Notes under the pieces: generated by a model | Told to the model about the DNA's origin: nothing | Databases searched by the model: none | The model's input: the letters and a program-made list of their open reading frames with translations, nothing else | Made by a program: the position numbers and the translations under genes | In this document: positions 53,591 through 56,863 of the stretch, one piece after another | Position numbering within the stretch: position 1 is the stretch's first letter | How the letters are laid out: each line of letters begins with the position of its first letter | Virus record (IMG/VR): IMGVR_UViG_3300037336_000025 | Location: 122,313 to 186,312 of that record | Reading direction: 5' to 3' (one strand) | DNA: 64,000 nucleotides | Origin: a virus

Positions 53591-54817
53591 CTAGCCTACT
53601 TCTTTGTCATAGATCACAGTCTGTCCAAACGGACTGATCATGTTGCTACCTTTAACGATGAACAAGGTATCTGCATAGTCCTCGTCACCCCACTCACCGC
53701 AAGGGTAGCCATCAGTGAACATGATAAACTTCTTAGGCTGGATATCATTCTCTTTCATGAACTCCCAGTTCACCATGAAGTCAGTACCGCCGCCGCCCTT
53801 GGGTTCGTACTCTAACAGGTCTTCGCTGTTGTCATGTGTGATCTCTTCATGAGCATAGATCTCTGTATCAAAGCACCATAGGTTAATCTTGAAGTCTTGG
53901 TACTGGTCCATGATGCCTTTGATCTCGCTAAGGAACACAGTTGCATCTTCAACACCAATTGATCCGCTCATGTCAATGGCCACGCATACATCGATAGTCT
54001 CATCGTTCTTCATGCCTGGCAGGATAGCACCTGACATCTGGCCCTTACGGCTAGGACGACTAAAGGAGTAATCGTTGCGTACGATACTTTGGATGTTCAT
54101 ACGGATCAACTCACGCCAGTTCATCTTAGGCTCAGTCATGTCCTTGATCAGGCGCTGGATACCCATAGGCACTTTGCCTGCACCAGCTGCCGCCGCTGAC
54201 TGGATCATTGCCTGCTTGATCTCATCACGGATGGCCTGTGCTTCTTCCTTAGTCATGCCGGGAACGCCCTTGCCGCCCTTGCCGCCCTTGCCTTCTTTGT
54301 CTCCTTCTTTGCCTTCGCTAGGAGCGTTGCCGTCTTCGTTAATGTGATCGTCAAGCAGGTCACCAACTTGCTTGAGCAAGTCCTCCATAGAGATCTTCTC
54401 AGACTTTTCCCAAAGCTCGTCGTAGATCTCTTCCCATGCCATGCCACGATACTTATTGTCTTGGCAGATATTTACTTCGGTGATCTTGTCGCCGATACGC
54501 TCGTCTACAAGGATCTGATTGACTGCAAAGTCCTGTGCAATATTACTCAGCTGACGATCACGCGATCCTACACGACCAAAGTGGTCAAACACGCAATGAC
54601 AGATCTCATGTGCAAAGAGGAACTCTAGTTTCTTGATAGAAAGTTTCTTAACAAAGTCCACATTGTAGTAGAAGTTTCTGCCGTTAGTTGCGGCAGTTTG
54701 GCACCAATCGCTAGCATCAATCAGTTGCATACGAGTAGCCATGTTGCCGAAGAAAGGAGTCTTCAGTAGCAGGGCAATACGGGCAGTTGTCAGTTTCTCA
54801 ATAATAGGATCATTCAT
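53591..54817 (-). CDS. Zincin-like/VWA domain protein (DUF2201 type)
   Basis: 408 aa. Residues 1-110 contain HEICH (70-74), an HExxH zinc motif. A Gly/Lys/Glu linker (about 165-195) leads to a C-terminal VWA-like domain with the MIDAS DMSGSIG (about 283) and a Thr in GGGGTDF. Such proteins pair with MoxR AAA+ ATPases to remodel or activate targets; a MoxR gene lies directly upstream, separated by an endonuclease insertion. Some relatives are named CobT-like. Confidence 0.82.
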   Translation of the reverse strand: MNDPIIEKLTTARIALLLKTPFFGNMATRMQLIDASDWCQTAATNGRNFYYNVDFVKKLSIKKLEFLFAHEICHCVFDHFGRVGSRDRQLSNIAQDFAVNQILVDERIGDKITEVNICQDNKYRGMAWEEIYDELWEKSEKISMEDLLKQVGDLLDDHINEDGNAPSEGKEGDKEGKGGKGGKGVPGMTKEEAQAIRDEIKQAMIQSAAAAGAGKVPMGIQRLIKDMTEPKMNWRELIRMNIQSIVRNDYSFSRPSRKGQMSGAILPGMKNDETIDVCVAIDMSGSIGVEDATVFLSEIKGIMDQYQDFKINLWCFDTEIYAHEEITHDNSEDLLEYEPKGGGGTDFMVNWEFMKENDIQPKKFIMFTDGYPCGEWGDEDYADTLFIVKGSNMISPFGQTVIYDKEVG

Positions 54818-54842
54818 TAGTCGCTCTCCTTAGTATGTATAT

Positions 54843-54871
54843 ATTATAGCACCAACGAATCCAATCGTCAA
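54843..54871 (-). promoter_or_regulatory. Early sigma70 promoter 13
   Basis: TTGACG, 17 bases, TATAAT (minus) for the VWA gene. Confidence 0.82.
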
Positions 54872-54919
54872 CCACTATGTTGTTGTATTACTGCAACAGC
54901 CCTGGCGCTTGAATAGGGT

Positions 54920-54990
54920 GGGCAGGCCCTGCTGAGACAGTCCTGCCCTGCAACGGAGGGGTCTTAATTCTCCATGGCACTTAGAACGTA
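54920..54990 (-). other. Recoded copy of the MoxR 3' end plus its terminator
   Basis: On the minus strand 54990-54964 reads TAC GTT CTA AGT GCC ATG GAG AAT TAA (YVLSAMEN, stop), matching the MoxR end TAT GTG CTC GTG GCA ATG GAA AAT TGA (YVLVAMEN, stop) with mostly synonymous changes. A hairpin GGGCAGG/CCTGCCC follows with the loop sequence ACTGTCTCAGCAG, identical to that in the true MoxR terminator at 55721-55754. Confidence 0.82.
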
Positions 54991-54996
54991 TAAATA
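54989..54996 (+). promoter_or_regulatory. Perfect late promoter for GIY-YIG endonuclease
   Basis: TATAAATA abuts the MoxR-end copy; a 62-base leader with TAAGGAA precedes the ATG at 55059. Confidence 0.7.
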
Positions 54997-55058
54997 AGAG
55001 TGAGGATCGCGATGTACCACCATCCACCCTCTCTAACAGTTTATAAGGAACTATCAGC

Positions 55059-55718
55059 ATGAATATTTACACTCCCTACACCTATCTCATAACATTTCTG
55101 CCCACAGGGCAACAGTACTATGGTGTTCGTACCAAACGAGGCTGCAACCCCACAGACCTTTGGAACAGTTATTATACAAGCTCTAAGGTTGTACGTCAAC
55201 TGATCGCTCAACACGGCTGTGGTGCTTTTACAACACAAGTCCGTAGAACCTTTGCCACCAGAGAAGCAGCATTGCTGTGGGAACATCGTGTTCTCCGTCG
55301 ATTGGATGCTGCCCGTACTCCTCACTGGCTAAACAAGAACAATGGTGATCGCAAGTTCGTCAATGAAGGCAAGACAATGAACGGTAAGAAGCATACCGAA
55401 GATGCCAAACAGCGTATGAGTATTAACAGCAGTGGAGAGAAGAATCCCAATTGGGGAGGAAAGGCTTTTACAGAAGAATCACGCAGGAAAATAAGTGAAG
55501 CTCGTAAGGGATCTAAACACACACCCGAGTCCCGTAAGAAGATGTCGGCGGCTCAGTCTGGGGAGAACAATCCCAACTATGGTAAGAAGTTCCATTGGTG
55601 GAACGACGGCACTCGCAATTCGTTAGTAGAACAATGTCCCGGATCGGAGTGGGTGCGTGGACGCTTATGGAGTGACGGACATAGAGCTAAGATGTTAGCA
55701 TCACGGCACCCTACATAA
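55059..55718 (+). CDS. GIY-YIG homing endonuclease with NUMOD3 repeats
   Basis: 219 aa, opposite strand to all neighbours. TYLITFLPTGQQYYGVRTKRG is the GIY-YIG-type start and LLWEHRVLRRLDAAR carries the catalytic E. NUMOD3-type repeats (NGKKHTEDAKQRMS; GGKAFTEESRRKISEARKG; GSKHTPESRKKMSAAQSG) and a C-terminal HWWNDGTRNSLVEQCPG module give DNA recognition. It separates MoxR from VWA and is flanked by two copies of the MoxR 3' end. Confidence 0.88.
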   Translation: MNIYTPYTYLITFLPTGQQYYGVRTKRGCNPTDLWNSYYTSSKVVRQLIAQHGCGAFTTQVRRTFATREAALLWEHRVLRRLDAARTPHWLNKNNGDRKFVNEGKTMNGKKHTEDAKQRMSINSSGEKNPNWGGKAFTEESRRKISEARKGSKHTPESRKKMSAAQSGENNPNYGKKFHWWNDGTRNSLVEQCPGSEWVRGRLWSDGHRAKMLASRHPT

Positions 55719-55720
55719 GG

Positions 55721-55754
55721 AAAAAGGTGGGCTACTGCTGAGACAGTACCCACC
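55721..55754 (-). terminator. Terminator after MoxR gene
   Basis: Stem GGTGGGTACTG/CAGTAGCCCACC with loop TCTCAG on the minus strand, then TTTTTCC. Confidence 0.82.
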
Positions 55755-55777
55755 CTCAATGGAAAACTGGGTCTAAA

Positions 55778-56863
55778 TCAATTTTCCATTGCCACGAGCA
55801 CATATTTGCCAAATCTTTTATGAAACTCTTCGAAGCTCTTCATCTTTGTAGCATCCAACGGCAGGTTGTAGTTTGTCAACGCTGTCTTCGCACCCATCAC
55901 TACCAACTCAGTTGGGAAATTGTCCATCATGTAGCGGAAGAAGTTGTCAGCACCGTCGTCCCAGTTCTTGACTTTCTTCTCTGCACGGTCTTTCAACTCG
56001 TAGCACAAGCTCACAGTCAAAGAGTACATTGCTGAGATCTCTTTAATCTGCAGGTCCTTGACCTTGCCATCAATGATGTCTTCTGCTTTAGGCAAGCGTC
56101 CTGCAATCTTGCGGTGAGCCATAAACTTCACAGCCAAGCCATCACCAACTGCACCACTGATCAAGTTAGTCAGCGTGTCGTTGTCAGTGTCGTCATCTTC
56201 CAACAGCTCGCTCACAAAGCTCCATGAACGTGGAGTAGCGAATGCCTTTGAGCTAGACTTAGGATCAAAGTCATACAGGTCTTGCTTGGCAAAGCCCACA
56301 TAGCCTACGACCTCTGGGTGGATCTTGTTCAGCGTGGCCCAGTCCTGCCAGTCATCAAAGTCTACCTTTGCTTCCAAGTGGACGAAACGGTTAGCCAGTG
56401 GAGCTGGCATACGATATGTCACACCACGATCGCCTTCGCGGTTACCAGCGGCAACCAAGTCAACACCATCTGGCAGTTTGTAAGTACCAACACGACGGTT
56501 CAGGATCAACTGATAGGCCGCAGCCTGCACAGCTGGAGGAGCACTGTTCAACTCATCCAGGAAGATGATTGCGGTGCTAGTTGGATCTGTAGGCAGCTCT
56601 GCTGGAGGCGCCCACACCATAGTGCCTAGGTCGCTGTTGTAGTAAGGAATACCTTTGATGTCAGTAGGTTCCCACAGGGCTAGACGAACGTCGATGACTT
56701 CGCGGCCTGCGTCTTCGCCAATCTGCTTGACGATATCTGACTTACCAATACCTGGAGGACCCCACAGGAACACTGGGCGACGTTTCTGGATTGCCTTAGC
56801 GATAGAACGCTTGGCACTCTTTGGACCCACTTGACGAACACTAATATCTGCTGACTTTGACAT
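55778..56863 (-). CDS. MoxR-type AAA+ ATPase
   Basis: 361 aa. Walker A GPPGIGKS (35-42), Walker B IIFLDELNSAP (about 94), sensor 1 LVAAGNREGD and the arginine-finger-type LANRFVH. MoxR ATPases act with VWA proteins in assembly or maturation; the VWA gene is the next minus-strand gene. Cyanophage CobS-type ATPases are an alternative name, but the sequence looks closer to MoxR. Promoter 14 has a TATACT -10 box. Confidence 0.85.
   Translation of the reverse strand: MSKSADISVRQVGPKSAKRSIAKAIQKRRPVFLWGPPGIGKSDIVKQIGEDAGREVIDVRLALWEPTDIKGIPYYNSDLGTMVWAPPAELPTDPTSTAIIFLDELNSAPPAVQAAAYQLILNRRVGTYKLPDGVDLVAAGNREGDRGVTYRMPAPLANRFVHLEAKVDFDDWQDWATLNKIHPEVVGYVGFAKQDLYDFDPKSSSKAFATPRSWSFVSELLEDDDTDNDTLTNLISGAVGDGLAVKFMAHRKIAGRLPKAEDIIDGKVKDLQIKEISAMYSLTVSLCYELKDRAEKKVKNWDDGADNFFRYMMDNFPTELVVMGAKTALTNYNLPLDATKMKSFEEFHKRFGKYVLVAMEN

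Follow-up and report, generated by a model that had tools for sequence, protein, structure and literature searches.

A phage GIY-YIG endonuclease gene lies between a recoded 3′ end of moxR and a displaced native copy of that end

In Torulaspora and Lachancea yeasts, WHO elements are standalone endonuclease genes behind FBA1; each homing event swaps the FBA1 3′ end for a self-resistant allele, and the displaced 3′ fragments are left beyond the element (PMC7282813). Fungal mitochondria harbor mORFs, endonuclease ORFs at gene ends (Allomyces atp6; Glomus atp6, atp9, cox2, and nad3) in which an inserted C-terminus is joined to the gene and the native C-terminus is displaced downstream, the Glomus atp9 case being of the GIY-YIG type (PMC3630166). 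Conserved genes of T-even phages have free-standing GIY-YIG or HNH endonucleases next to them (SegA–G, MobA, and MobE), with late promoters and hairpin leaders; the cases described there are intergenic or gene-splitting, and none is described as combining a recoded replacement end with displacement of the native one (PMC2988022). A search of the open-access literature, mostly at the level of titles and abstracts, turned up no phage in which a gene end is recoded and its native counterpart displaced, which is weak evidence that none has been reported.

The window analyzed here, a stretch of 64,000 nt (positions 122,313 to 186,312) from the 186,312-base IMG/VR record IMGVR_UViG_3300037336_000025, contains a moxR-like AAA ATPase gene (55778–56863, minus strand), assigned by Pfam AAA_5/AAA_3 matches, that is the putative target of such an endonuclease. 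Antisense to moxR and behind it lies a SegE-like GIY-YIG/NUMOD3 homing endonuclease gene (55059–55718, plus strand; Pfam and alignment A1), followed by a VWA/DUF2201 gene (53591–54817, minus strand; Pfam). The gap between moxR and VWA spans 960 bp in the window versus 103–148 bp in endonuclease-free relatives (21 readable through to VWA). The original prediction placed two diverged moxR 3′ ends on the two sides of the endonuclease, and both the sequence and the translations agree. On the minus strand, the copy joined to moxR, which belongs to the recoded last 14 codons of the gene (55778–55819; KRFGKYVLVAMEN; codon comparison), reads KYVLVAMEN with stop TGA at 55780–55778; the far copy (54990–54964) encodes YVLSAMEN, ends in TAA, and matches the moxR-joined end of endonuclease-free relatives. 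The two coding stretches are identical at 18 of 27 positions, and the peptides on the two sides of the endonuclease match with a score of 35, versus at most 32 in 21 mismatched controls.

Each copy is accompanied by two hairpins on the minus strand. In the joined copy, H1 (55757–55791) has a 13-bp stem that spans the stop codon, and H2 (55726–55754) is a terminator hairpin followed by a T run; in the far copy, H1 (54950–54979) and the H2 terminator (54920–54948) together occupy 54920–54979, and endonuclease-free relatives carry the same pair behind moxR. Folding of both copies bears out the claim that the stems differ in sequence and are compensated, and the loop said to be common to them, ACTGTCTCAGCAG, is present in the H2 loop of each. 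In the window, just two sites carry this 13-mer, and the 186-kb record as a whole likewise has just two sites with its 12-base core. The loop core UCUCAG of the moxR terminator is conserved in most relatives of the clade and is therefore by itself no proof of recent duplication. Chance, or a recurring terminator motif, is ruled out by the two occurrences of the 12-base core in 186 kb and by the lack of a second copy in endonuclease-free relatives. Within H1, the last Ala codon pairs through its wobble base with the 3′ UTR; 19 of 21 endonuclease-free loci have this pairing, with all four wobble types represented and covarying. A further hairpin element, of the GTGCCAGGGG(T)GTTG... type, is found at about 54845–54910 and downstream of 53591, repeated before promoters behind moxR and VWA; relatives L012, L017, L020, L045, and L007 also have it. 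A group I intron or intein was rejected as an account of the locus, given the antisense orientation of the ORF, the uninterrupted reading of moxR to its own stop, and the lack of any Rfam match in 54800–55900 even at E 5.

Which of the two copies is native was to be decided from relatives without the endonuclease. A MoxR search yielded 80 loci, all of which, as far as they can be read, lack an endonuclease at the moxR site; 23 of them form a close group with 83–89% MoxR identity, 21 being readable through to VWA. Every member of this group carries the displaced-type end on moxR, with the pattern AAG TAT GTN ... ATG GAG AAY stop in 23 of 23 loci. The displaced copy TACGTTCTAAGTGCCATGGAGAATTAAGACC is identical to the moxR end of endonuclease-free L007 at 28 of 31 positions, and the joined copy matches the native-type moxR end at 18 of 27. 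Because the endonuclease-free moxR genes of the close group carry the far-type end, the comparison identifies the far copy (54964–54990) as the native end and the moxR-joined copy as a recoded replacement, and it rules out the converse assignment. The joined copy had been labeled the true end; the label is correct in that it is the functional end of moxR, and incorrect as to ancestry. Uninterrupted relatives carrying both copies, which would make the duplication independent of the endonuclease, did not appear: none of the 21 endonuclease-free relatives readable through to VWA has a second moxR end. Conversely, a search with the endonuclease returned 8 contigs with proteins 68–98% identical, in one site and one orientation, and all 8 have both a recoded moxR end and a native remnant on the far side, in agreement with the proposed duplication and recoding of the end on either side of the endonuclease. 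None of the endonuclease-free phages found exceeds 89% MoxR identity, which leaves the insertion junction short of single-base resolution.

The locus shares with WHO elements the replaced 3′ end of a host gene and the displaced native fragment left behind, and its sequence pattern agrees with a predicted resistance of the own allele and sensitivity of the foreign one, as in those elements. The WHO protein, however, is an intein-like LAGLIDADG enzyme with a zinc finger, whereas the phage protein is of the GIY-YIG/NUMOD3 type, and by that definition the phage gene works like a WHO element without being a member of the class. In addition, WHO fragments are about 400 bp long and reside in yeast, whereas the phage tails comprise some 27–45 coding bases, the insertion is antisense, and versions at 5′ ends exist. 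With mORFs, the locus has in common an inserted C-terminus on the gene and a native one displaced beyond the endonuclease ORF. mORFs are organellar, however, whereas the present locus comes from a virus contig of 186 kb; at two of the four Glomus genes, the mORF is in phase with the host gene, and neither a replaced terminator nor a 5′-end version is described there. The likeness to the T-even endonucleases lies in a free-standing nuclease beside a conserved gene and in the hairpin leader. HomeR home-and-rescue drives follow the same design, in which a conserved gene is cleaved and rescue comes from a recoded copy (PMC7968924), but they are engineered Cas9 drives in insects and have the logic alone in common with the phage cassette.

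By codon comparison, the recoding is confined to the end of moxR, and the protein sequence is retained. Over the last 14 codons, the synonymous difference is 0.70 between endonuclease-bearing and endonuclease-free genes and 0.29 among the endonuclease-free genes, whereas over the rest of moxR it is about 0.42 in both comparisons. Of the synonymous codons in this stretch of the endonuclease-bearing genes, 31–58% are absent from all of 16 endonuclease-free genes, versus 3–4% elsewhere. The Lys codon AAG has become AAA, and the Glu codon GAG has become GAA, in 9 of 9 endonuclease-bearing copies and in 0 of 23 endonuclease-free ones. The encoded tail is the same apart from Val in place of Ser in some alleles and a single Arg for Lys in L086 and L106. 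This silent re-spelling keeps the gene working and, most likely, ends its role as a target. Between the near-identical loci L086 and L087, 5 bases differ within 6 positions of the recoded tail (L086:3750–3755; HRRFG versus HKRFG), and only 3 further differences occur over the compared stretch.

The endonuclease ORF comprises 219 codons with matches to NUMOD3 (E 9.9e-21) and SegE_GIY-YIG (E 1.3e-5) in Pfam. Its GIY-YIG domain and NUMOD-type DNA-binding modules, together with its presence at one site in 8 contigs and absence from the 80 MoxR loci as readable, agree with a placement in the free-standing Seg-like class. Residues Y9-L10-I11, Y20-Y21-G22, R24, E75, and N92 are invariant in alignment A1, and match the GIY-YIG catalytic pattern known from I-TevI. 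No solved structure gave a meaningful sequence match. Over codons 1–97, the window and L086 differ by 12 synonymous codons and 1 nonsynonymous codon, which indicates that the catalytic half is under purifying selection. Four endonuclease types are present among the endonuclease-bearing loci, each with its own NUMOD3 region and its own recoded tail, and these alleles are mosaics; L086, L089, and L090 represent types B, C, and D. Between L088 and the window, the flanks are nearly identical, yet 101 differences fall in 55300–55560 (the middle of the endonuclease) and 5 in 55796–55808 (the moxR tail), with none thereafter until 56957. The L088 cassette resembles instead that of L086, the flanks of which are only about 60–85% similar; likewise, the window cassette, except for its DNA-binding middle, is far closer to that of L086 than these flanks are. 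L086 and L089 have most of their common flanks 96–100% identical, whereas their endonuclease middles and tails differ. These observations fit repeated allelic replacement and transfer between phages. In L106, from the same phage lineage, a type-A recoded moxR tail is followed by an ORF of the HNH-type DUF7487 family (L106:7075–7851, minus strand) and no GIY-YIG gene, which shows that the tail can occur apart from this endonuclease. The motif of this ORF suggests that it encodes an HNH nuclease, and a search for its relatives found none beyond itself.

Is end replacement restricted to moxR? The flanks of 21 more distant endonuclease relatives were compared by peptide match across the endonuclease, and three loci reach scores of 41–47 versus at most 32 in mismatched controls. 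In L120, the endonuclease sits at the start of a gene that reads as Ugd-like (UDP-glucose-dehydrogenase-like): the native start on the left is cut off by a stop and, with its upstream sequence, agrees at 48 of 50 bases with endonuclease-free L239, while a recoded start is joined to the gene on the right. In L137, the endonuclease lies antisense at the start of a gene that reads as HAD-like; the native start, with 26 of 27 bases as in endonuclease-free L149, remains behind the upstream gene, and the joined start is synonymously recoded at codons 6–9. Judged by these relatives, the arrangement of a displaced native end and a recoded joined end also exists at the 5′ ends of these two genes. L116 was set aside: its C-termini (AKIQKRWSD and AKIKKRWED) resemble each other, yet their divergence precludes a decision, and the far copy may instead be a separate small gene. 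Among isolated phages with relatives of the endonuclease, 1 of 12 has duplicated flanks, Rhizobium phage RHph_I1_18 (score 47), with MIDYENPWIYNGTPFSREDAQG-stop as the displaced start and, across the endonuclease from it, TWLYNGSPFT as the joined one. This phage apparently has the same end replacement, its relatives of at most 50% being too distant to prove which start is native; the single positive locus in 12 indicates that end replacement is one strategy among several. At the site held by the GIY-YIG gene in L137, L154 has an HNH-like ORF (L154:1452–2471, minus strand), and the two share a leader and a C-terminal zinc-finger-like tail, which suggests nuclease-domain swapping. L090 contains a second GIY-YIG/NUMOD3 ORF (L090:988–1656, plus strand), antisense behind the VWA gene with CGTATAAATAA upstream; it was not accepted as a further end replacement, as no direct-orientation displaced VWA end was found there and only weak inverted similarity to the VWA 3′ end precedes the ORF.

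The locus is probably the product of a mobile homing-endonuclease cassette that inserts near the moxR 3′ end and brings its own replacement end. In the proposed cycle, the endonuclease would cleave the conserved native end of moxR in a co-infecting phage that lacks the cassette, and the cassette-bearing genome would serve as the repair template, aligned through moxR at one flank and through the retained native fragment or VWA at the other. The recipient would then contain moxR with the recoded tail, hairpins, and terminator, next the antisense endonuclease gene, and beyond it its own old tail, detached. As the recoded tail keeps the protein sequence and loses the match to the site, the new host would be immune and its moxR functional. 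A change in specificity through the NUMOD3 modules would allow the endonuclease to oust a different allele from the shared site and install its own tail there. The sequences themselves establish the architecture, the identity of the native copy, the focused synonymous recoding, and the exchange of alleles between phages, whereas cleavage of native ends, resistance of recoded ends, and repair as the route of insertion are presumed steps of the model. Two observations count against it: L106 has the recoded tail without a GIY-YIG gene, and in some loci the displaced end is only about 23 bp long and would offer little downstream homology for repair.

The short remnant may have a second role, which is suggested by the endonuclease leader (54989–55058, plus strand), composed of the TATAAATA box (54989–54996), a hairpin (55002–55031), and a ribosome-binding site (alignment A2, 15 leaders). 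The box overlaps the displaced native remnant by two bases and resembles the T4 late promoter. The 15 leaders of the family share an (N)ATAAATA-like box (the NATAAATA box) and the hairpin, and one of them precedes the HNH-type ORF in L154. The hairpin thus covaries across 15 loci and two nuclease types: 10 of 10 pairs have a compensatory change, 91.8% of cells pair, and the covariation is 0.716 versus 0.243 for shuffled and at most 0.123 for slid controls. No Rfam family matches the leader. The phage genome has 10 TATAAATA sites versus 18 for the reversed control, so that enrichment is lacking and the counts give no support to TATAAATA as the general late promoter of this phage. More tentatively, the native remnant abutting TATAAATA may serve as an autorepression operator of the I-TevI kind; the I-TevI operator is similar to the homing site of that enzyme and overlaps the late promoter of its gene (PMC2988022). 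A native-end core of about 23 bp beside TATAAATA is retained in every endonuclease-bearing locus, even where the terminator copy is lost, and the Ugd target copy in L120 also abuts TATAAATA. In L137, however, the remnant is at the opposite end of the endonuclease gene from the promoter, and the genome counts of TATAAATA likewise speak against a regulatory site of this kind. That the remnant is kept mainly as an operator over the endonuclease promoter, and not as homing homology, is a tentative possibility, and one compatible with a homing cassette.

An unlikely alternative to selection for cleavage resistance is that the recoded tail is a mere passenger that moved with the endonuclease in a co-conversion tract originating in a more distant phage. 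The foreign C-termini carried in this way by mORFs (PMC3630166) and the mosaic nature of the endonuclease-bearing alleles are consistent with such an origin. However, the tail reads KYVLSAMEN or KYVLVAMEN as in the clade, whereas relatives at 71–76% have mostly KYIIQAME or KYIITAME; the divergence ends near the insertion site and leaves the remaining moxR ordinary; four endonuclease types come with four different recoded tails; and the pattern recurs at two further genes. It is very improbable that the tail was duplicated by slippage or illegitimate repair at insertion, with later drift of the joined copy and no homing. Illegitimate double-strand-break repair at microhomologies is known for T4 homing systems (PMC2988022), but what is seen, a divergent functional copy and a native-like free copy, is the reverse of the outcome expected under drift, and 8 contigs at one site with allele exchange across flanks of 60–85% similarity require mobility. 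Finally, that the 3′ end evolves fast through its RNA hairpins, with the endonuclease there by chance, is hardly credible: H1 is real, as its Ala wobble pairing attests, but the stretch is more conserved than average among endonuclease-free genes (0.29 versus about 0.42), and a second native copy beyond the endonuclease is left unexplained.

Beyond the homing cassette at moxR, we consider it fairly probable that end-replacing homing cassettes form a general class in phages, as natural cleave-and-rescue elements. Their features would be insertion at one or the other end of a conserved gene, a synonymously recoded end, a displaced native end, the NATAAATA box with its covarying hairpin, and nuclease types (GIY-YIG or HNH-like) and DNA-binding modules that are swapped while the site is kept. 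Free-standing phage endonucleases must spare their own genome and the function of the target gene, and a re-spelled gene end is a solution that can be read in the sequence. A mechanism of yeast and fungal mitochondria would thereby extend to phages, with an added 5′-end version, and the replacement of cassettes is seen between nearly identical phages, a natural counterpart of home-and-rescue gene drives. Since each locus pairs a native sequence that is predicted to be cut-sensitive with a recoded one that is presumably cut-resistant, the specificity of these endonucleases is directly testable.
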